32,412 nucleotides of DNA from a virus (IMGVR_UViG_3300005532_000030:1-32412), one strand, 5' to 3'. Counted from the first letter of the stretch, positions 3,408 through 24,973 are shown. Made by a program: numbers and translations. The notes: a model not told the origin generated them from the letters alone.

Positions 3408-4955
3408 CTAGAACTCGGTCCCCAGATCGGGATCCCACGGACGATTGGAGCGTTTGGTCTTCAGCTCCTTGATCTGCTTGAGCGCCTCACTCTCGACATC
3501 GCTGCCGTCGACGTGATCCTCGATAGCGGCGGCGTACGGCTTGCGCGGGAGCAGCACACCGGCAGCTCCGAGTGCAATCTCTACCGCGTCGAGCAGGTCA
3601 TCATCCTGGTTCTTCTTCTCAGGATCGAAGTTGACCCACTGGTCGATGAACTCCGGCATGTTGCGCCGGATACGCACGCGCCCAGTCTTGAAAATCGGGG
3701 ACATTCCGAGGATGCGCTCGTTCTTCTTCGAGCCTGGCGGTGTCCACACGGGCACGACAGGAGGTAGTCCTTCGAGCCGGTACGCCATTTGTGCGAGCGC
3801 GCGCTGGTAGGCGTTCGACTCAATGCCGATGATCTCCGGCCGCCACTGCTGGTGCCACTCACGAATCTTGTCGAGCTGATCCGGGAACTCAATGCGCCCG
3901 ACCCAGTAATCGAGCAGGAATGCCTGCGAGTTGTCCTCCGTGAGCCCGATAACCGCCATCGCGAAGTGGTCTGCGTTATCTGACAGCGAGATCGCCGGGT
4001 CAATACCAAGGAAGATGCGGAGCTTGTACTGCCCCGTCTCAGCGTTGAGATAGGGCTTGATCGTGACCTCGCCGGACTGAATGTCGGGGTTGCCCTGCGT
4101 CCAGTAGTGCAGCCAGTCGCCTTGCAGCGCGATGCCGGTGAACGCCTCGAAGCTCGCCAGGAACTCCTGACGGAACATGATCGGGTGGTACCGGCGACGG
4201 TAATACTCCCACGAGCGCTTCGGGAAGAACGGGTTGTCGATGCTCGTGTACTCGACGCGGAATTGCGCCGGGTCACTCAGGGCATCGCCCTGGAAGAACT
4301 CCTTCCAGAACCAGTTCTTACCGTGCGGCGTCGTGGTCGTGATGACCAGCCCGAGCTTGTCGGCGAGGGCAGGAGCCGTGACAAGCCACGCCTCATCGTC
4401 CTCGATGAAGGCGGCCTCGTCGATCCAGAGGATGTCAAGGCCCGCGCCGCGGAGCGACTGCGGGTTGTCGGCCGTCTTGAACTGCACAACCGTGCCGGAC
4501 TCAGTGAATTCGATCCGGCGCTCGGTCTTGTTGTACTGGTAGTCGCGGCCCTTGATGAGGCCCGCCTGCGCAATCACTTCGAGCAGCGTCGCGAGACTCG
4601 GGAACCCGGACGGATAGTCCTTTGCAAGGATCCAGATCCAGAGCGGGCGCTCGCTGTCGACACCGTGCGCGTCGCGGTGAAACTCGCGCGGGTGCAGTGC
4701 GTAGAAGAGCACCTCCCACGCGGCCGAAAGCGTCTTGCCACCGCGGCGTCCTGCTACTAGGTGGCGGAACTGCGCGAGGTTGCTGTCGTTGCCGAGTGCG
4801 CCGTGAAAGAGCGCCTGCCAGACGTGCGGACGGTAGCCCTTCTGAGCGAACCACCAGAACTTGACAGGAAGCCGCTCAACCAGCTTCGGGTACTCGTGCT
4901 TTGCGAGATCCTCCGAACGGTGCGGCCCCCCGGCCAGCACCGAGCGGAAGTTCAA
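3408..4955 (-). CDS. terL: Terminase large subunit (packaging ATPase and nuclease)
   Basis: This 515-residue motor protein cuts concatemeric DNA and pumps it into the prohead. The ATPase half shows Walker A GRRGGKT at residues 69-75, Walker B LDILWIDE at 173-180 and a coupling motif TTTTPHGKNWFW near 207-218. The nuclease half shows the RNase H-fold acidic residues in FLGIDPA (Asp319), GIESNAY (Glu379) and DDDLLDA (451-457). The length is normal for the family. It starts with TTG six bases after GAGGAGG. About 90 bases separate it from the upstream 67-residue gene. Confidence 0.96.
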   Translation of the reverse strand: MNFRSVLAGGPHRSEDLAKHEYPKLVERLPVKFWWFAQKGYRPHVWQALFHGALGNDSNLAQFRHLVAGRRGGKTLSAAWEVLFYALHPREFHRDAHGVDSERPLWIWILAKDYPSGFPSLATLLEVIAQAGLIKGRDYQYNKTERRIEFTESGTVVQFKTADNPQSLRGAGLDILWIDEAAFIEDDEAWLVTAPALADKLGLVITTTTPHGKNWFWKEFFQGDALSDPAQFRVEYTSIDNPFFPKRSWEYYRRRYHPIMFRQEFLASFEAFTGIALQGDWLHYWTQGNPDIQSGEVTIKPYLNAETGQYKLRIFLGIDPAISLSDNADHFAMAVIGLTEDNSQAFLLDYWVGRIEFPDQLDKIREWHQQWRPEIIGIESNAYQRALAQMAYRLEGLPPVVPVWTPPGSKKNERILGMSPIFKTGRVRIRRNMPEFIDQWVNFDPEKKNQDDDLLDAVEIALGAAGVLLPRKPYAAAIEDHVDGSDVESEALKQIKELKTKRSNRPWDPDLGTEF

Positions 4956-5044
4956 AGCGTTACCTCCTCAGGAGTTTGCGCAGGGCGAAGCGGAGCTGGT
5001 CATGCCAGCTCGGGAAGCGCGCGTGTGCGACGGCCCAGCCGGGC

Positions 5045-5248
5045 CTAGACGTTGACACCGAACTTGCGCCGGATGGCTGCACGCACGTCAGCACAGGTCT
5101 GCTCGCCATCCTGGCGGCAGTCCGAAAGGGCGGCCTCTGCGTGTCCGCGGTCCGGGATCGGATAGCTGCCCGGACCGGGCGCTTTCTCCGGGTAGACGTA
5201 GTCCTCTGGACCAAGCGCGCGGCGCTGCGACATGTCAAGGCGAGCCAC
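5045..5248 (-). CDS. Small phage protein with LGPEDYVYPEK / PIPDRGHA motif
   Basis: This 67-residue protein has a phrase seen in small phage proteins and prohead-associated domains: LGPEDYVYPEK followed by YPIPDRGHAEAALS. The exact role is not known to me. It starts with GTG inside a TAGTG overlap with the preceding basic protein, so it is coupled to it. The 89 bases between its stop and TerL contain an open frame with no start codon I accept. Confidence 0.75.
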   Translation of the reverse strand: MARLDMSQRRALGPEDYVYPEKAPGPGSYPIPDRGHAEAALSDCRQDGEQTCADVRAAIRRKFGVNV

Positions 5249-5436: not shown

Positions 5437-5706
5437 CTACATCACCTTCTTCGAGCGAGAGCGCGAACGCCTCGGCTTCGGAACGAGCGATGCGTTCGGA
5501 TTGCGAAGTGCGATGGAAGACTTCGACTTGCGTACGCGCGCGGCCTTCGGCTTCGCGACGCGCACCTTCGCCGCCTTGACCTTCGGCATCTTCACCTTCG
5601 TCGAGCCCATCGTTCCCTTCGTGCCGCGAATCGGCTTCGGGGGTCCGGGCATCAGGGAAATGCCAGGCAGGCCACCTTCTGACGGCATGCCGATGTAGCC
5701 GGGCAT
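5437..5706 (-). CDS. Basic low-complexity virion-operon protein
   Basis: This 89-residue protein starts with a Gly/Pro/Met-rich segment (MPGYIGMPSEGGLPGISLM) and continues as a Lys/Arg/Ala/Val-rich tail with repeated KVKAAKV / RVAKPKAARV units, ending RRSRSRSKKVM. It resembles histone H1-like tails and phage proteins that condense or organise packaged DNA, but this is inference from composition. It overlaps the upstream zinc-ribbon gene through a TAATG junction. Confidence 0.65.
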   Translation of the reverse strand: MPGYIGMPSEGGLPGISLMPGPPKPIRGTKGTMGSTKVKMPKVKAAKVRVAKPKAARVRKSKSSIALRNPNASLVPKPRRSRSRSKKVM

Positions 5707-5861
5707 TACTCCTCCTCGGGGCGCGACTCATGGCACACCGGGCAGTTGACCCAGTAGTACCGGTTGCGCGCGCCGCAGTTCGGACACGACCAGTCGGCGC
5801 GGTTCTGAACATACACCATCCGCCAACCGGCGTGCGTGCCGTTCTTGACGTTGACGTGCAT
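5706..5861 (-). CDS. Small zinc-ribbon protein
   Basis: This 51-residue protein has two CxxC knuckles, SCPNCG and NCPVCH, 14 residues apart, which should bind one zinc ion. Its N-terminal half contains a short aromatic strand region (GWRMVYVQNRADW) and it ends with an acidic tail. It may bind nucleic acid or a protein partner. Both ends use TAATG overlaps with neighbours, so translation is coupled. The high third-position GC and tight packing support a real gene. Confidence 0.75.
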   Translation of the reverse strand: MHVNVKNGTHAGWRMVYVQNRADWSCPNCGARNRYYWVNCPVCHESRPEEE

Positions 5862-6250
5862 TAGTGAGCCGCGACGCGGAAGATGTCGCAGTGATAGGTG
5901 ACGTTTGTATTCGCCGACGTCACGAGGCGAAAGCGCCGATACCGTCGCGCGATAGGGTTCGAGAGGAACGCAATTTGCGCGCCGACGGCCGTAGCTGAGC
6001 GCGTCGACTGCGAGATCGTGTCAGACGCATCCGTGATGTACCCGACGTCGTACCAGTTGGCCTGTGCATCCGCCACCGTGGTCGGATCATCGGGAGACGC
6101 CTGGACCTTCCAGGTGACGGTGGGCGTACTGCCGACCGCCTCCACAACGAACTGAAAGACGACGGCCTCGTACCCCGCCCCAACATGCACGCCCGCGTGC
6201 GTGTTGTTGCCAGTCGAACCCGCAGCCGCGAGTTCAGCCTGATCGTACAA
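5861..6250 (-). CDS. Probable virion accessory protein, beta-rich
   Basis: This 129-residue protein is Thr/Val/Ala-rich with alternating hydrophobic residues (VVFQFVVEAVGSTPTVTWKV, RRYRRFRLVTSANTNVTYHC), which fits a beta-sandwich such as a capsid decoration or tail-associated domain. I cannot assign a family. It begins with TTG four bases after AAGGAGG and lies nine bases after the tailspike gene, so it may be a partner or chaperone of the tailspike. Confidence 0.65.
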   Translation of the reverse strand: MYDQAELAAAGSTGNNTHAGVHVGAGYEAVVFQFVVEAVGSTPTVTWKVQASPDDPTTVADAQANWYDVGYITDASDTISQSTRSATAVGAQIAFLSNPIARRYRRFRLVTSANTNVTYHCDIFRVAAH

Positions 6251-11897: not shown

Positions 11898-12065
11898 ATG
11901 AAGAACCTACGCGCCCTTGGGCTGCTTGTCGTCGGACTCGCAGTAGCCCTGTCCCTGATCTACGCGGTCGACGCCCTGCTCTACGGCGGAGTATGGGGCA
12001 TCGGGGGCACGCTCGTCGCGCTGTCTGCGCTGCTGATCGTGCTCCTCGCGGAGGAGTCATCATGA
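11898..12065 (+). CDS. Small membrane protein with two membrane segments
   Basis: This 55-residue protein has two hydrophobic helices, about residues 5-24 (LGLLVVGLAVALSLIYAV) and 33-51 (IGGTLVALSALLIVLL), joined by a short loop, with an acidic end. It should sit in the inner membrane with both ends on one side. It overlaps the flavoprotein gene by an ATGA junction, so the two are coupled and might work together. It could be a holin-like protein, but no lysin is nearby. Confidence 0.65.
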   Translation: MKNLRALGLLVVGLAVALSLIYAVDALLYGGVWGIGGTLVALSALLIVLLAEESS

Positions 12066-13084
12066 GCGCCTGCACACACTGCCAGCACGAATGCGACCTG
12101 CTCGTGATCGGCGCAGGCCCGGCAGGGCTCGCCGCGGCGGTCAACTCCGCGAGCGAAGGGCTGCGCACGATCATCCTGGAACGCTCAGGCGCGGTCGGCG
12201 GCCAGGCGTCCTCAAGCTCGCGGATCGAGAACTACCTCGGTTTCCCCGCGGGCCTGACGGGCGCACAGCTTGCGCAGGCGGCGCACGACCAGGCCGTCAA
12301 GTTCGGCGCTGACATCCACGCGGACGCACAGGTCATCGACCTGCGCAGCGACGGAGACGTCAAGCAGGTCATGTGCGAGAACGGGTCGGTCTACCGCTGC
12401 ACGACGGCGCTGATCGCGTCAGGCGTTACGTACCGGCAGCTTGACGTTCCCGGCATCGCGCACCTGATCGGCCGAGGCGTCAGCTACGGCGTGTCCCCTG
12501 ACCAGGCCGAGGAGTACCGCGGGAAGCGCGTCTTCATCGTCGGCGGCGCGAACAGTGCGGGCCAGGCCGCAGTGCACCTGGCGCAGCATGGCGCGGCCGT
12601 CGAGATCCTGACCCGCTCGCCGCTCGAAAAGAGCATGAGCGCGTACCTCGTGCACCGCTGCAACGAGCACGAGAACATCATCGTCCGCGAAGGAGCGCGC
12701 GTCGCTGCGGTGCGCGGGAATCACGAGCACGAGCTGGCGCACGTCACCGTCGCGGATCCCGACACCGTCACGACCGAGGATGCGGCGGGCCTGTTCATCT
12801 TCATCGGCGCTGAGCCGAGAACGGACTGGGCTCCCGCGCTCGCGAAGGACGCGCGAGGGTTCGTACTCACCGGCCCGGACATTCCGGGCGACAGCCTGAA
12901 CCTGTACCGGCGGCCCCCGGCGTACCTCGAAACGAGCCTGCCGGGCGTGTTCGCAGCGGGCGACGTTCGGGCGAATTCGGTCAAGCGCGTGTCCGCCGCA
13001 GCGGGCGAGGGCGCGATGGCCGTCAACTTCATCCACCGCTACATCGAGGGCTTCTCCCGCCAGAAGGAGGCAGTCGCATCATGA
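12062..13084 (+). CDS. Thioredoxin-reductase-like flavoprotein lacking the redox CxxC
   Basis: This 340-residue protein has the two Rossmann folds of thioredoxin reductases: FAD-binding VIGAGPAGLAAAV (residues 15-27), NAD(P)-binding VGGANSAGQAA (160-170), and the C-terminal FAD motif GVFAAGDVR. At 137-147, where active enzymes have CxxC, it reads GRGVSYGVSPD, so it cannot reduce thioredoxin in the usual way. Homologues with GGGNSAGQAA and no CxxC are known in actinobacteria. The N-terminus carries three cysteines (CTHCQHEC), possibly a metal site or substitute redox site. It overlaps genes at both ends through ATGA. Confidence 0.85.
   Translation: MSACTHCQHECDLLVIGAGPAGLAAAVNSASEGLRTIILERSGAVGGQASSSSRIENYLGFPAGLTGAQLAQAAHDQAVKFGADIHADAQVIDLRSDGDVKQVMCENGSVYRCTTALIASGVTYRQLDVPGIAHLIGRGVSYGVSPDQAEEYRGKRVFIVGGANSAGQAAVHLAQHGAAVEILTRSPLEKSMSAYLVHRCNEHENIIVREGARVAAVRGNHEHELAHVTVADPDTVTTEDAAGLFIFIGAEPRTDWAPALAKDARGFVLTGPDIPGDSLNLYRRPPAYLETSLPGVFAAGDVRANSVKRVSAAAGEGAMAVNFIHRYIEGFSRQKEAVAS
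13053..13070 (+). repeat. Start-associated sequence, copy 6 (inside a coding region)
   Basis: TCTCCCGCCAGAAGGAGG lies within the last codons of the flavoprotein gene and ten bases before the ATG at 13081. Its conservation inside a coding sequence argues that the motif itself is selected. Confidence 0.65.
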
Positions 13085-20515: not shown

Positions 20516-20880
20516 TCCAGCGCTTCGCGGCGCTCTACGCAGGACTGACGTTGATCGTCGGCCTCGCGGGCTTCGCGGCGTACAAGGCGTACACGATCCC
20601 GTCCGTTCCGCAGCCTAAGACGGTCGTGCACAAGCAAGACCTCGGCAACTCGAACGTCGTCGAGATCGCAGAGCAGACTGTCGAAAGTCAGGCGACTCAG
20701 GCGGGCGTGGTCGTTCGCAAGATGACCGCGGCCGACGTACATACGACGCCGACGGGTGCAACGGTCGATCTCGTCGTGGACGCAGTCGACCCGATCTCAG
20801 GGCAGGCGCAGCGGCTCAAGCTCCGCGTGACCCTGACGAAGGGCCTGTACTCCGTCTCGAATGTCGTCCGCACCGGGTAG
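20500..20880 (+). CDS. Membrane-anchored protein, ATC start
   Basis: This 126-residue protein has one N-terminal membrane segment (ALYAGLTLIVGLAGFAAYKA) followed by an exported-looking, Val/Thr-rich domain, so it is probably anchored with its C-terminal part outside the cytoplasm. The real function is unknown. GGAAAGG lies seven bases before ATC at 20500; an earlier in-frame ATG at 20389 runs through the preceding gene. GTC at 20497 is an alternative. It overlaps the polymerase gene at TAGTG. Confidence 0.6.
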   Translation: MNNKLIQRFAALYAGLTLIVGLAGFAAYKAYTIPSVPQPKTVVHKQDLGNSNVVEIAEQTVESQATQAGVVVRKMTAADVHTTPTGATVDLVVDAVDPISGQAQRLKLRVTLTKGLYSVSNVVRTG

Positions 20881-21971
20881 TGCCGCGGCTCAAGGAGTTC
20901 CGCTGGGACTCGTGGGCCGAGCACACCTTCCGCGCAATTCGTGAGGACGATCCGGACATCATCGCGGTTGATACGGAGACGCGCGGGCTCGGGTTCTACG
21001 ACGAGCCCTTCGCCGCCACCCTCACGTGGCGGCGGCCTGACGGATCACTGAAGTCAGGCTACATCGACCTAGAGAGCGGCGACCTCGCGTGGCGAATCAC
21101 GGAGCTTCGTACCGTGCTGATGCGTACTCCGGCCTGGGTGTTCCACAACGCGAAGTTCGACCTGCAAAAGCTGAAGCTCATCGGTGCGATCAACGATCCG
21201 ATGATCGAGCGCGTCGACCTACACGACACGCAGACGCAGTACATGCTGCTCGACGAGAACCGCACTAAGGGCTTGAAGGACTTGGCTGTGCGCGTGCTCG
21301 GCTACGACGACACCATCGAGGTGGAGATCAAGTCGGGCAAGAACAAGGGCCAGTTCAAGAGCGTCCCGAAAGAGCAGCACAAGCTCAACGCGGTCCGTCG
21401 CAAGCTCGGCCTGAAGAAGGACGACGGCTACCACCTTCTGCCGCGCGAGGTCCTGATCCCGTACGCGCTACGGGACACGGAGTTCACGCTGCAACTGCAC
21501 GAGCGGCTGTACCCGCGCCTGCGCGCGAAGAGCGACCCGAAGCTGCTCCAGCTCTACAACGACTCCATGCGGCTCAAGCGCGTGCTCCTGCGCATGGAGG
21601 GAGACGGGTTCGCGCTCGACGTCCCGTACACGGAGGCAAAGGCGTCCGAGTACGGCGTGCGCGTGATGGAAAAGTGGGATCGCGTTGTTCAACTCGTCGG
21701 CGACGCGGACTTCAACCCGCGCTCAACCGATCAGGTCAAGGCCGCCTTTGCGCGACGTGGGGTCCACCTTCAGGACACACAGGCGAAGACGCTGAAGGAG
21801 CTTGACGACGACCTCGCTCGGGCGCTCCTGGAGTACCGGGACGATTTCAAGATCCACACGACGTACCTGATCGGCCTGTTGCGCGAACAGCGGAACGGCC
21901 GCATCCATCCGAACTTCAACGACGACGGTGCGCGGACTGGGCGCATGTCGTCCTCATCCGCAAAGGAGTGA
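20880..21971 (+). CDS. Family A DNA polymerase, N-terminal piece (3'-5' exonuclease part)
   Basis: This 363-residue protein carries the proofreading exonuclease: DTET (Asp31, Glu33), FHNAKFDLQ (Asp94) and YALRD near 195-199. It continues through thumb-like helices into FNDDGARTGRMSSSSA, the first half of the conserved TGRxSSxxxNxQNIP motif, then stops after only KE. No polymerase motif A, B or C is present, so alone it cannot polymerise. The missing part starts at 24170. GTG overlaps the preceding stop. Its stop overlaps the start of the first inserted gene. Confidence 0.85.
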   Translation: MPRLKEFRWDSWAEHTFRAIREDDPDIIAVDTETRGLGFYDEPFAATLTWRRPDGSLKSGYIDLESGDLAWRITELRTVLMRTPAWVFHNAKFDLQKLKLIGAINDPMIERVDLHDTQTQYMLLDENRTKGLKDLAVRVLGYDDTIEVEIKSGKNKGQFKSVPKEQHKLNAVRRKLGLKKDDGYHLLPREVLIPYALRDTEFTLQLHERLYPRLRAKSDPKLLQLYNDSMRLKRVLLRMEGDGFALDVPYTEAKASEYGVRVMEKWDRVVQLVGDADFNPRSTDQVKAAFARRGVHLQDTQAKTLKELDDDLARALLEYRDDFKIHTTYLIGLLREQRNGRIHPNFNDDGARTGRMSSSSAKE

Positions 21972-22204
21972 CACTGGAAGACACCGAGAAGGTCGTCCTG
22001 GCAGTACAGGAGGACGATCACGGGCACATGACCCTGATCATCCACGGCGAGCCGGAGATCATCTCCGAGCTGGCCGAGGCGGTCGTTGTGCTGATCGCGA
22101 CCATGGCGGACATCGTCGATGCTGAGAGCTACGTTACGGATGATCCGGTCGGCGCGATTCGCGAACTGGACGGCGACACCGAGGATCCCGCGGCGGCGGC
22201 GTAG
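21968..22204 (+). CDS. Acidic protein within the polymerase split, unknown function
   Basis: This 78-residue acidic protein (VVLAVQEDDHGHMTLIIHGE, ending TEDPAAAA) has no recognised motif. AAAGGAG, encoded by the last codons of the polymerase fragment, is its ribosome site, and GTG overlaps the polymerase TGA. So it is expressed right after the broken polymerase piece and not by itself. Confidence 0.6.
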   Translation: MTLEDTEKVVLAVQEDDHGHMTLIIHGEPEIISELAEAVVVLIATMADIVDAESYVTDDPVGAIRELDGDTEDPAAAA

Positions 22205-22773
22205 TGCAGTTCGTCGAGACTCTGATCACCGACGACCAGGCCCTGAAGATCCGTCTCGCGCTCGACCTGATCCTCCAGGATCCGGACCGGTATGTCATGA
22301 CCGACGAGGAGCGTGACGAGTACCAGCGCCTGGCCGTCTTCTACGGCGTGGTGGCCACTGACCCGTCCCGCTTCGCCCCGACAGGGAAGAATGCGCAGAC
22401 GGTCAAGAGCATCGTTCGTCGTGTGAAGGGTCCGGCGCAGCCGCAGTCGCGTCGTAATCGGCGCAAGATGCGCCAGGAGCGGCGCAGGGCACATCAGAAG
22501 CTGATGCGCTCCCAGCGCCGTGAGTTCGCTGAGCAGTACAACGCGGCGATGCAGACGTTGCGTTCGGAGGCCGAGGAGGCCGGGCGCGCAGCGGCTGAGG
22601 TTGAAGAGCGGTTCGCGGCAGAGCCGAAGGTGATGGTTCTCGCCGCCGACGGAACACCGGTCATGCGGGGTATTCCTGCGTCGATGGTTGTACCGGAGCC
22701 GGAGAGCCTCGACGAAGCACCGAAGATCATCCTGCCCGGCACTGCTGAAGCGCTCGGGCTGGTGGAGTCGTGA
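22204..22773 (+). CDS. Basic helical protein, unknown function
   Basis: This 189-residue protein has an N-terminal helical region (LRLALDLILQDPDRYVMTDE type), a strongly basic middle (RRNRRKMRQERRRAHQKLMR) and a coiled-coil-like segment (LRSEAEEAGRAAAEVEERF). It may bind DNA or RNA. GTG overlaps the preceding TAG. No catalytic motif is seen. Confidence 0.6.
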   Translation: MQFVETLITDDQALKIRLALDLILQDPDRYVMTDEERDEYQRLAVFYGVVATDPSRFAPTGKNAQTVKSIVRRVKGPAQPQSRRNRRKMRQERRRAHQKLMRSQRREFAEQYNAAMQTLRSEAEEAGRAAAEVEERFAAEPKVMVLAADGTPVMRGIPASMVVPEPESLDEAPKIILPGTAEALGLVES

Positions 22774-22787
22774 ACGAAAGGACACCA

Positions 22788-23002
22788 TGTTGAACAGCGA
22801 AACAAAGACTCGTGATTCCATTGCCGCTTCGACGCGCGACGAGGCGCTGAAAGACGCGTACATAGCCGAGAGCAACCTTCTTGAGGAGTACAAGTTGTTG
22901 CGCAAGTCATGGGAGCGCAACCCGGAGATGACGGCGCTGGCGTCGGGCGTGAAGGCACTCCGGAAGTGCATCGCCGTGTTGGAGGCCCAGTCCGATGCCT
23001 GA
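22788..23002 (+). CDS. Small helical protein, unknown function
   Basis: This 71-residue protein is predicted helical throughout (AYIAESNLLEEYKLLRKSWE, GVKALRKCIAVLEAQSDA). ATG lies five bases after GAAAGG. It overlaps the next gene by eight bases. No family is recognised. Confidence 0.6.
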
Positions 23003-23210
23003 TGCCGCGCCGACGGACGAGTTCGAGTCGCCCACGGTGATCGCGGGCTACGACTACGCGCCACCCGAGGAGCCGTATGTGGGTTACCCGGTGAAGCTGA
23101 CGAAAGTCGAGGCACGGCGGCTTCAGAAGGCGCTGACGATGCACGTTGATTACCCCGACCTCGAACCTGAGTACCAGGAGTTGTACGACAAGCTGGAGGC
23201 CGTGCTTTGA
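22995..23210 (+). CDS. Small protein, unknown function
   Basis: This 71-residue acidic protein contains YDYAPPEEPYVGYPVKLTKV and then a helix (EARRLQKALTMHVDY). No family is recognised. It overlaps the previous gene at ATG and the next at TTGA. Confidence 0.6.
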   Translation: MPDAAPTDEFESPTVIAGYDYAPPEEPYVGYPVKLTKVEARRLQKALTMHVDYPDLEPEYQELYDKLEAVL

Positions 23211-23395
23211 CTGCCGCTACCAGGCGTCCGTTTGAGCACACCGCTGACGATGTTCTCTCTCGGCTTCAACGAGCAGAGGAGTGGTACGGCTTCTCGGGCA
23301 TCTCGGATGATGTCGCGGAGATCCTGCGGCTGGTCGAGGACTTCGGTGAGGCGAGCCTGATCCGTCTGGTGCGAAAGGTGGCCTATGGCGACTGA
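23207..23395 (+). CDS. Small helical protein, unknown function
   Basis: This 62-residue protein (ADDVLSRLQRAEEWYGFSGI, EILRLVEDFGEASLIRLVRK) is helical. The TTGA overlap couples it to the previous gene and it overlaps the next ATG by 11 bases. Confidence 0.55.
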   Translation: MTAATRRPFEHTADDVLSRLQRAEEWYGFSGISDDVAEILRLVEDFGEASLIRLVRKVAYGD

Positions 23396-24173
23396 ACGCT
23401 CGGTTGCCGCAAACGTAGCCGGGGTCGATGCAGGGATCGAAGCCCCCGGCCAGCGCCCCCCGTACCCTGCTAACGGGGCTACTGCCGCTCAGGTGCTCGC
23501 GCTCGCCCGGAGGCTCGGCGAGTCGTCAGAGCCGGTACTCGTGTCCGCATCGCCAGCATCGGGCGATGGCAATGAGCTTCCGCTCGCCGAAGATGTCGAG
23601 CCACGCGCTGACGTAGCTGAGGGTCTTCCGCCCGCAGGCGGGGCAGGGGGTTCCGCGCAAGGTCTTCATGCTCTTAGTAAGTACCGGGGCGTAACACCTT
23701 CTGCCGCTCCAGAGCGCGAGGCTCCGTGCGGCTGCAAGTGGTACCCGGACGGCACAACCTACAAGTGCCTCAGCCACCCCGATATTCACAACGGCTGTGA
23801 AGAACCGGGAAACAGTGAATCTGCCGCTCGCGGTGAGGAGCCGGTCGCCAGGGTGACGGCCGAACAGCTTGCGGCGCACAAGGCCGAGAAGGACGCTGCG
23901 TACGCTCGCTCTGCCGCTCGCGCTCGCCGGAATGACGATCTTGTGCAACCGCAAATCGCGGACGCAGATGTATGTCATAACGCCTCTGCCGCTCCGATAC
24001 CTGTCCAGGAGTTAGCGCGTTGGGAGCGCGAGACGGGCGAACATCGTGACAATTACCCGCTTGATCCTGACGAGTACTGGTCATTGCTCCGTGCTTCCCG
24101 AATACGCGAAGCCACGTCCAAGGTTCGGGCTAAGGCAGTCATCGACTTTGTGAAGGACGTGCGCGGAGCCTGA
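23385..24173 (+). CDS. Mosaic repeat-bearing frame at the 3' edge of the polymerase split
   Basis: This 262-codon frame carries five identical CTGCCGCTC units at 23482, 23701, 23821, 23911 and 23986, with in-frame spacings of 219, 120, 90 and 75. They encode (S/T)AA. The segments between them have unlike composition: a Cys-rich piece (CGCKWYPDGTTYKCLSHPDI), a charged helix (VTAEQLAAHKAEKDAAYARS), and two segments whose codon bias fits the opposite strand. It ends with a plausible helical domain (ETGEHRDNYPLDPDEYWSLL onward). I cannot say if all of it is made as one protein. Confidence 0.45.
   Translation: MATERSVAANVAGVDAGIEAPGQRPPYPANGATAAQVLALARRLGESSEPVLVSASPASGDGNELPLAEDVEPRADVAEGLPPAGGAGGSAQGLHALSKYRGVTPSAAPEREAPCGCKWYPDGTTYKCLSHPDIHNGCEEPGNSESAARGEEPVARVTAEQLAAHKAEKDAAYARSAARARRNDDLVQPQIADADVCHNASAAPIPVQELARWERETGEHRDNYPLDPDEYWSLLRASRIREATSKVRAKAVIDFVKDVRGA
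23415..23482. other. Structured element abutting the first CTGCCGCTC repeat
   Basis: GTAGCC (23415-23420) pairs with GGCTAC (23477-23482). Inside, GGGGTCGAT pairs with ATCGA and CCCC around GCAGGG, and CCCCGT can pair with ACGGGG. The structure ends at the first base of repeat 1. It could be a recombination site, an RNA structure or chance in coding DNA. Confidence 0.35.
23482..23994. repeat. Five exact CTGCCGCTC repeats
   Basis: The 9-mer occurs at 23482, 23701, 23821, 23911 and 23986; four copies extend to TCTGCCGCTC. Different codons could encode the same peptide, yet the bases are identical, so the DNA itself seems conserved. Unit spacing is variable and the intervening segments are unrelated. 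Confidence 0.7.
23526..23669 (-). CDS. Antisense zinc-ribbon protein within the mosaic frame
   Basis: Read leftward from ATG at 23669, this 47-residue frame has two CxxC knuckles, PCPACGRKTL and ARCWRCGHEY, 24 residues apart, a typical zinc ribbon. Third codon positions are almost all G or C on this strand and only about half on the other, so the minus strand looks like the coding one here. The gene lies wholly between repeats 1 and 2. A ribosome site is weak (AAGAG), so expression is uncertain. Confidence 0.55.
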   Translation of the reverse strand: MKTLRGTPCPACGRKTLSYVSAWLDIFGERKLIAIARCWRCGHEYRL

Positions 24174-24973
24174 ACTTCCAGAACATCCCGCGAGACGACA
24201 AGACGGTCAAGCGGGCGATCCTTCCGAAGCGCGGCTCGTTCAGCTTCTTCGACTACAGCCAGATCGAGCCCCGCCTCACAGCGTACTTCGCAGCCAAGAT
24301 TGGTTACCCGGAGTTCGCTGAGCAGATTCGAAGTGGCGTGGATGCATACACCGCTGTTGCACGACTTGCGACGGCGAAGGACGACATCACGCCCGAAGAG
24401 CGACAGGTCTGGAAGCGCGTCTTCCTGGCGATTCTGTACGGCGCAGGTGTAAAGCGCGTGCGAGAGGTCTGGATCGAGGAGACAGGAGAGGTTATCTCCG
24501 ACGCCCAGTCGAGGAAGATCGTCGACGCGTTCAAGCGCAACTGGCCCGCGGTCAAGGCATTGCAGGAGCGTGTCATCGCGCAGCACCACGAGCGCGGGTA
24601 CATCATCGGGCTCGGTGGCCGGCACCTTCACATGGAGGAGTTCGGCGAGCACAAGCTCCTGAACAAACTGATCCAGAACAGTGCTGCGGACTGGATGAAG
24701 CTCGCACTGCTTCGCGTCGACGAGTGGCTCCTGTCACGGCCTGACGTTCTGTCGCGAATGGTGAGCGTGATCCACGACGAGATCATCTTCGACGGGCCGG
24801 AGCGCGAGATCCCGATCCTGCACGAGTCGATTCCGCCGCTGATGGCGGACATCTTCCCTGCGGTGACGGAGGTCGTCCCGGTCACGGTCGATCACGAGGT
24901 GTCGGTCACGAACTGGGCCGAGAAGATCGAGTACGAGGAGTGGCTTGACCGAACCCATCAGGCTGCGGCCTGA
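24170..24973 (+). CDS. Family A DNA polymerase, C-terminal piece (polymerase domain), CTG start
   Basis: This 267-residue frame opens with LNFQNIPRDD, the second half of the split TGRxSSxxxNxQNIP motif. It then shows motif A FFDYSQIE (Asp28 and Glu33), motif B RQVWKRVFLAILYGAG (Lys82, Tyr90, Gly91) and motif C VIHDEIIFD (Asp203). All catalytic residues are here. Together with the N-terminal piece the length is 630 residues, normal for a phage family A polymerase. The CTG overlaps the TGA of the mosaic frame (CTGA). The ribosome site GAAGGA is 12 bases away, a weak fit. Whether the pieces assemble is unknown. Confidence 0.8.
   Translation: MNFQNIPRDDKTVKRAILPKRGSFSFFDYSQIEPRLTAYFAAKIGYPEFAEQIRSGVDAYTAVARLATAKDDITPEERQVWKRVFLAILYGAGVKRVREVWIEETGEVISDAQSRKIVDAFKRNWPAVKALQERVIAQHHERGYIIGLGGRHLHMEEFGEHKLLNKLIQNSAADWMKLALLRVDEWLLSRPDVLSRMVSVIHDEIIFDGPEREIPILHESIPPLMADIFPAVTEVVPVTVDHEVSVTNWAEKIEYEEWLDRTHQAAA

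Follow-up and report, generated by a model that had tools for sequence, protein, structure and literature searches.

Phage polymerase genes that are divided or interrupted have been described in several settings. The closest mechanistic model is gp43, a family B enzyme: according to a passage of PMC2988022, which cites Petrov et al. 2010, Aeromonas phages 25 and 44RR encode it as two adjacent genes (43A/43B) separated by intercistronic sequence or by a seg endonuclease, and the pieces from phage 25 co-purify and are active. Free-standing endonucleases have also split Aeh1 nrdA (MobE) and T4 gene 60 (MobA), in both cases leaving functional two-chain products (PMC2988022). Within family A, the OM43 phages MEP401 and MEP402 and their relatives carry the DNA polymerase as two open reading frames (ORFs) with a small ORF between them, for which the authors suggested a possible intron (PMC10580990). 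The DNA polymerase genes of SPO1, SP82, Bastille and Pf-WMP3 have group I introns with HNH endonucleases, all at one site, E. coli position 674, which in Pf-WMP3 lies between Pro363 and Asn364 (PMC3428280). Here we describe a family A DNA polymerase (PolA) that is encoded by two genes in the viral sequence IMGVR_UViG_3300005532_000030:1-32412 (the window, 32,412 nucleotides) and in about 40 of its relatives. We consider it very likely that this arose by gene fission and that the products are two separately translated polypeptides that assemble into the only DNA polymerase of these phages.

The two genes, here called the N and C pieces (Table 1), complement each other closely. The N piece matches PF01612 (2.3e-14), PF00476 positions 8-125 and the phrog_17 DNA polymerase (7.1e-52), and it carries the exonuclease residues DTET, HNAKFDL and YALRD; the C piece matches PF00476 positions 127-381 (1.3e-36) and carries motif A (FFDYSQIE), motif B (RQVWKRVFLAILYG) and motif C (IHDEI). 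Across the two genes, then, all of the exonuclease and polymerase motifs of family A are present, distributed just as the first-pass annotation of this DNA had placed them. Since the two PF00476 matches abut at profile position 125/127, no part of the domain is missing, and they are the only matches to this family in the 32,412-base record. The same annotation had put the break inside the TGR-QNIP motif, and so it is: the 5' end of the C piece reads CTG AAC TTC CAG AAC ATC CCG (x-NFQNIPR), and joining TGR, MSSSSA and NFQNIP gives a motif of the normal length, again as had been claimed. The gap of 2.2 kb with six small genes is also there, as six tightly packed ORFs, its edges lying slightly inside the quoted 21936-24190.

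AlphaFold models of the pieces taken singly gave a predicted local distance difference test score (pLDDT) of 90.0 and a predicted template modelling score (pTM) of 0.84 for N, with the tail 356-363 disordered, and a pLDDT of 91.9 and a pTM of 0.88 for C, with the first ~20 residues among the least certain. In these models it is the junction ends that are least ordered, as would be expected for ends that meet only in a complex. The best Foldseek matches of the C fold are Bst, Klenow and Taq Pol I (TMq about 0.8), and the nearest PDB structures to the N fold are the DpoZ of phage phiVC8 and Klenow.

Relatives were sought by searching viral contigs with each polymerase piece and with alignments, and the junction could be read in 39 loci having both pieces, a few of them near-copies. 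All 39 are split at one and the same codon, with an N-piece tail after TGR of 8 amino acids in 29, 9 in nine and 10 in one. In a maximum-likelihood tree of the C part, the 42 split metagenomic phage rows form a single clade (support 100/99), and the split or intact state changes once on the tree, compared with a mean of 28.3 changes for shuffled labels. With the same codon broken throughout a clade of 42 tree rows, the split is, to judge from these sequences, far beyond chance. The first-pass annotation had called for a comparison with uninterrupted polymerases: the more distant relatives are indeed intact and nearly always have a proline at the break (SSSDP-NLQNIP), so that the break site corresponds to their Pro before N-x-Q-N-I-P. 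Closest to the window are L003, L035, L090 and L004. No isolate of the split clade was found, the best phage matches being about 30% identical, and the clade is therefore known here from metagenomes only; two scans of genome contigs for host prophages gave at most intact, distant polymerases. The portal protein of the window is distantly related to those of Arthrobacter and Microbacterium phages.

Both pieces are under purifying selection in close pairs, with a ratio of nonsynonymous to synonymous substitution rates (dN/dS) of 0.05-0.24 in both for ten such pairs; the catalytic residues are invariant and all of the catalytic motifs have been kept. In the records of 20 relatives (32-51 kb, from contigs that may be incomplete), the two pieces are the only family A matches (for L111 the search scored the C piece alone, and the N piece was seen when the junction was read), and neither in these records nor in the window was a family B or PolIII alpha polymerase found. 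A complete polymerase elsewhere, with the two pieces as inactive remnants, would have told against the first-pass annotation, and the window and these 20 records contain none. What they contain is two complementary pieces, each with a start of its own (codon and Shine-Dalgarno (SD)-like site) and each under selection.

The codon preceding the Asn of the motif is nearly always CCN (Pro) in the intact relatives. At the 39 split junctions it is ATG (16), GTG (12), TTG (5), ATC (2) or, in one case each, ATA, ATT, ACG and CTG. All of these are ATG or one base away from it, as against 20% of the other in-frame codons, a comparison that translates into no simple probability since the members are related. 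Where this position encodes Val or Leu the codon is always xTG, although other codons for Val and Leu predominate in these genes. Moreover, the predicted anti-SD pairing upstream of the C piece averages -6.6 kcal/mol, versus -2.9 kcal/mol in control windows (Wilcoxon p=5e-8), with some of the strongest values upstream of the unusual starts of L023 (ATA), L035 (ATC) and L039 (ACG). In L118 (ATT) and L035 (ATC) there are canonical codons in frame upstream, so that their odd codons need not be the start. From this pattern we infer that the C piece is translated from its own start, which in the window would mean the actual use of CTG. In one intact relative (L062), a Val codon (GTG) takes the place of the Pro at the break (SSSGG-V-NCQNIP), a ready-made start codon.

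The DNA between the two pieces is highly variable. The insert ranges from -4 to 2,198 bp, and four loci have none at all: in L133, L146 and L147 the genes overlap at ATGA (-4) and in L005 at TGATG (-1), these members falling in two subclades. Insert content is unrelated among members, comprising glycosyltransferase, SLOG-like, endonuclease-like or unknown ORFs. A family 2 glycosyltransferase occupies the slot of L096 and its relatives (PF00535, 3.6e-18), and SLOG-like proteins, with a score below the curated cut-off, those of L095 and L152. Endonuclease-like genes stand at the break, directly before the C piece, in four members: that of L118 is an HNH gene (phrog_2255, 6.6e-22), and those of L089, L097 and L111 match phrog_5046 and look LAGLIDADG-like by eye.

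Two pairs of loci show the site both empty and occupied. L146 reads ..GCATGAACGTACAG.. where L142 has ..GCATGA[760-bp insert with a glycosyltransferase gene]..GCATGAATGTACAG.., and L119 reads ..GGTGTAACATGA|ACGTACAGAAT.. where L118 has ..GGTGTAACATGA[HNH gene ..ACTGATTA]ACGTACAAAAT... The HNH gene of L118 sits precisely at the start codon of the C piece (ATGA|ACG) and has left ATT before AAC; this is the one pair in which a direct link to an endonuclease is seen. Odd start codons, that of the window included, would on this evidence have been brought in by the 3' ends of incoming genes. Two further features of these pairs may be mentioned. Within the first ~240 bp of the L118 C gene, beside the HNH gene (4875-5120), lies a diverged stretch that is ~60% identical to L119, the rest being about 95% identical, such as is left in a co-conversion tract. 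The C genes of L146 and L142 are 97% identical and their N genes 80%, indicating a recombination boundary near the N/C junction and suggesting that the subunits can be exchanged.

The fission point coincides, exactly to the codon, with the Pro|Asn intron site of SPO1, SP82, Bastille and Pf-WMP3 (PMC3428280), which bears out the earlier remark that this is a known favourite of introns. A distant relative from another polA lineage, L081, has a group I intron at the very same site (5650-6003; RF00028, E 4.8e-19, permissive search), and this intron ends in TTG, at the position taken by the start codon in the split clade. The window's insert gave no Rfam match at E<=5, and a permissive search for a group I core, which recovered the L081 intron as a positive control, detected no RNA family when run on the inserts of the window, L063 and L035. 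A scan of 12 loci at the gathering threshold missed even that intron, so that only the permissive runs are used here as evidence. Reading the edges of the window's insert by eye, we found near the motif no in-frame combination of a 5' U and a 3' terminal G, and those members with ATC, ATA or ATT before AAC do not end in G.

How, then, should this arrangement be understood? The window by itself, with its CTG start and 2.2-kb gap, looks damaged, and its polymerase could be thought a broken remnant that decayed after an insertion and was replaced by another enzyme; the single old clade, the invariant catalytic residues, a dN/dS well below 1 in both pieces and the lack of any other polymerase in the records of 20 relatives make this very unlikely. 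An intron, of group I or II, spliced from the mRNA to give a full-length polymerase is what the position would suggest, this being the exact known group I site (PMC3428280) and actually occupied by one in L081. Nevertheless, the four members without an insert have just an overlapping stop and start and hence nothing to splice out, no ribozyme was detected in the three inserts searched permissively, and near the edges of the window's insert a 5' U and a 3' terminal G are nowhere combined in frame. Some inserts, furthermore, measure just 166-224 nucleotides, which is at or below the usual size of a group I intron, the inserts hold ordinary ORFs, and the codons before Asn obey the rules of start codons; all told, splicing is exceedingly unlikely. 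Of the two outcomes that the first-pass annotation had offered, two assembling polypeptides or a gene rejoined by RNA or DNA rearrangement, it is consequently the former, in which the C piece has its own ATG-like start and SD-like signals, that gains support and the latter that loses it. For ribosomal frameshifting or bypassing, which would fuse N to C, the zero-insert members might be cited, as their genes overlap in different frames just as at frameshift sites; yet most inserts run to hundreds of bases and have stop codons in at least two of the three frames, the overlap shows no evident slippery sequence, and start codons and SD sites have been kept, so that the chance of this is very small. 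A split intein that joins the polypeptides after translation (a "fractured gene") is practically inconceivable: such inteins do interrupt phage polymerase genes, for example PolB of MIJ3 (PMC6892783), but here the N piece runs on for no more than 2-4 residues past the motif and the C piece opens with the motif itself, leaving no room for an intein half, so that the sequence refutes this reading unless a third gene supplied an activity in trans. The earlier statement that neither intron nor intein is visible at the break thus stands.

A further question is how the fission came about. Perhaps there are indeed two proteins but the gene was divided by plain mutation, a new stop and a new start, without any mobile element, the endonucleases arriving later. 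We consider this possible, though less likely than not: the zero-insert members fall in two subclades, and no intron remnant is visible in the inserts searched; against it, the break matches to the codon an intron/homing site used in several phage lineages and in L081, and the MEP401-type fission shows that other positions are possible. The fission may descend from a lost intron, from an endonuclease insertion or from plain mutation, and the data do not decide among these.

Two separately translated and assembling polypeptides remain the explanation that we favor, and the mechanism we propose for them is as follows. One old fission of polA, between Pro and Asn in the motif TGR...P|NLQNIP, would have left one operon that yields two proteins: N (exonuclease and thumb), which stops 8-10 residues past TGR, and C (palm and fingers), starting with the codon that took the place of the Pro codon. 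N and C would assemble non-covalently into one polymerase, both of the ends lying in the loop beside the primer terminus. The start of C would usually be behind an SD-like site and often overlap the preceding stop (ATGA, GTGA, CTGA, TGATG), probably with translational coupling. The junction would keep receiving genes because the break lies at a recognised group I intron/homing site of phage polA. Incoming genes, HNH and LAGLIDADG-like endonucleases among them, would insert either between the two genes or right at the start codon of C, and each would put a new codon before AAC, which persists only where it is ATG or differs from ATG by a single base. A more far-reaching version, which we put forward tentatively, is that of an obligate two-subunit replicative family A polymerase whose junction is an active landing pad for homing endonucleases: insertions would rewrite the start of the catalytic subunit (ATG, GTG, TTG, CTG, ATA, ATC, ATT, ACG), cargo turnover would tune its translation, and N and C could be exchanged independently between phages.

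In this proposal the split, its restriction to a single clade, the start-codon pattern, the variable insert, the purifying selection, one precise HNH insertion and, within the records searched, the lack of any second polymerase are evident at the level of sequence; that N and C assemble and together have polymerase activity we infer. Some observations weigh against it. The case for fission through an intron or endonuclease is circumstantial, and family searches show no endonuclease among the window's slot genes. As the window is a fragment of 32 kb, its phage could conceivably carry a polymerase elsewhere. Finally, its C piece has a CTG start with a moderate SD site (rank 5 of 40), no ATG, GTG or TTG in frame upstream, and the next one downstream only after motif A, from which it follows that its expression could be weak; L039 (ACG) likewise has no canonical in-frame start that would keep motif A.

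With 43A/43B, our mechanistic model, the split clade shares a phage replicative polymerase encoded by two adjacent genes. It differs in that gp43 belongs to family B, is broken at another point and is split in few phages, whereas the split clade has a family A enzyme, about 40 members, no insert or many different ones, and a break at a group I intron site. Aeh1 nrdA and T4 gene 60 offer the parallel of an endonuclease gene that splits an essential gene into two assembling polypeptides, as may be the case here; the genes are others, and the slot of the split clade is reused clade-wide by many cargo genes. MEP401 and MEP402 (L107/L108) resemble it in layout, one ORF with the exonuclease and N part and another with the C part, but their break immediately precedes motif A (..NLQNFDGEIKTLFLSRYGE at the end of N, MILNADAKALE at the start of C) and is not at Pro|Asn; we considered whether the two are the same fission and rejected this given the different position, theirs being a separate, independent event. 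The polA introns of SPO1, SP82, Bastille, Pf-WMP3 and L081 occupy the identical Pro|Asn site, but they are spliced to give one mRNA, while in the split clade no ribozyme was found and C has its own start. The split-intein PolB of MIJ3 is likewise an interrupted phage polymerase gene, and differs in that the split clade has no intein parts. In the literature that could be searched in full, which leaves out most subscription papers, we found no earlier report of a split at Pro|Asn or of this clade. With splits already known for T4-like PolB and elsewhere in PolA (MEP401), what is new is a family A case in which the two-gene polymerase is prone to insertions and has become fixed throughout a phage clade.

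Family searches with the six ORFs in the window's own slot gave no match above cut-off. Homologues of the 189-residue ORF were found by tblastn (3e-26 to 1e-3) in L004, L035, L090 and L003 (truncated in the last), in every case in the slot, which marks this gene, on sequence grounds, as an old resident there. In the last of the six there are four exact in-frame copies of the word TCTGCCGCTC (S-A-A), at 23700, 23820, 23910 and 23985 (window 23700-23994; spacings 120, 90 and 75), and these are the only ones on that strand of the window; the stretches between the copies look unrelated, as if modules had been joined at the word. That these repeats are the edges of a mobile element was considered and rejected, the word at two mismatches being no commoner than chance in the window and absent at the junctions. 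A minus-strand ORF inside the same gene (23526-23978) encodes a plausible zinc ribbon (CPACG...CWRCGHEY), so the last slot gene may be a composite, or else the real gene may lie on the opposite strand. Well away from the slot, at 11993-13084, there is a ribonucleotide reductase-like ORF of 363 amino acids only (phrog_6397, 4.8e-52) in a record where PF02867 matches nothing; it could be a truncated or divergent ribonucleotide reductase.

Table 1. Coordinates in the window of the two polymerase genes and of the ORFs in the slot between them.
Feature	Position	Strand	Remarks
N piece	20880-21971	+	GTG start, 363 amino acids; 3'-5' exonuclease domain, thumb and first part of polymerase domain; ends TGRMSSSSAKE-stop
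N piece end	21936-21968	+	TGR motif and 8-residue tail, then stop
Small ORF, 78 amino acids	21968-22204	+	No family
Insert (slot)	21972-24169	+	2,198 bp between the two polymerase genes
Basic ORF, 189 amino acids	22204-22773	+	Homologues in slots of relatives (tblastn)
Small ORF, 71 amino acids	22787-23002	+	Longer TTG frame 22688-23002 also listed
Small ORF, 71 amino acids	22995-23210	+	ORF call
Small ORF, 62 amino acids	23207-23395	+	ORF call
ORF, 262 amino acids	23385-24173	+	TGA stop overlaps CTG start of C piece (CTGA)
C piece	24170-24973	+	Palm and fingers, motifs A, B and C; CTG start

The split clade provides a clade-wide and apparently long-lived case of an essential replicative polymerase maintained as two genes, and it connects gene fission, to the exact codon, with a named intron/homing site. 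Its empty and occupied sites are material for studying how mobile endonucleases break genes and how such a break becomes permanent. There is a practical side as well, since gene finders will miss or mis-start C pieces that begin with CTG, ATA, ATC or ACG and will count such phages as having no intact polymerase. Lastly, the junction marks a place where evolution has itself split and tested a polymerase of the Klenow/Taq family, which is of use in conditional split polymerases.

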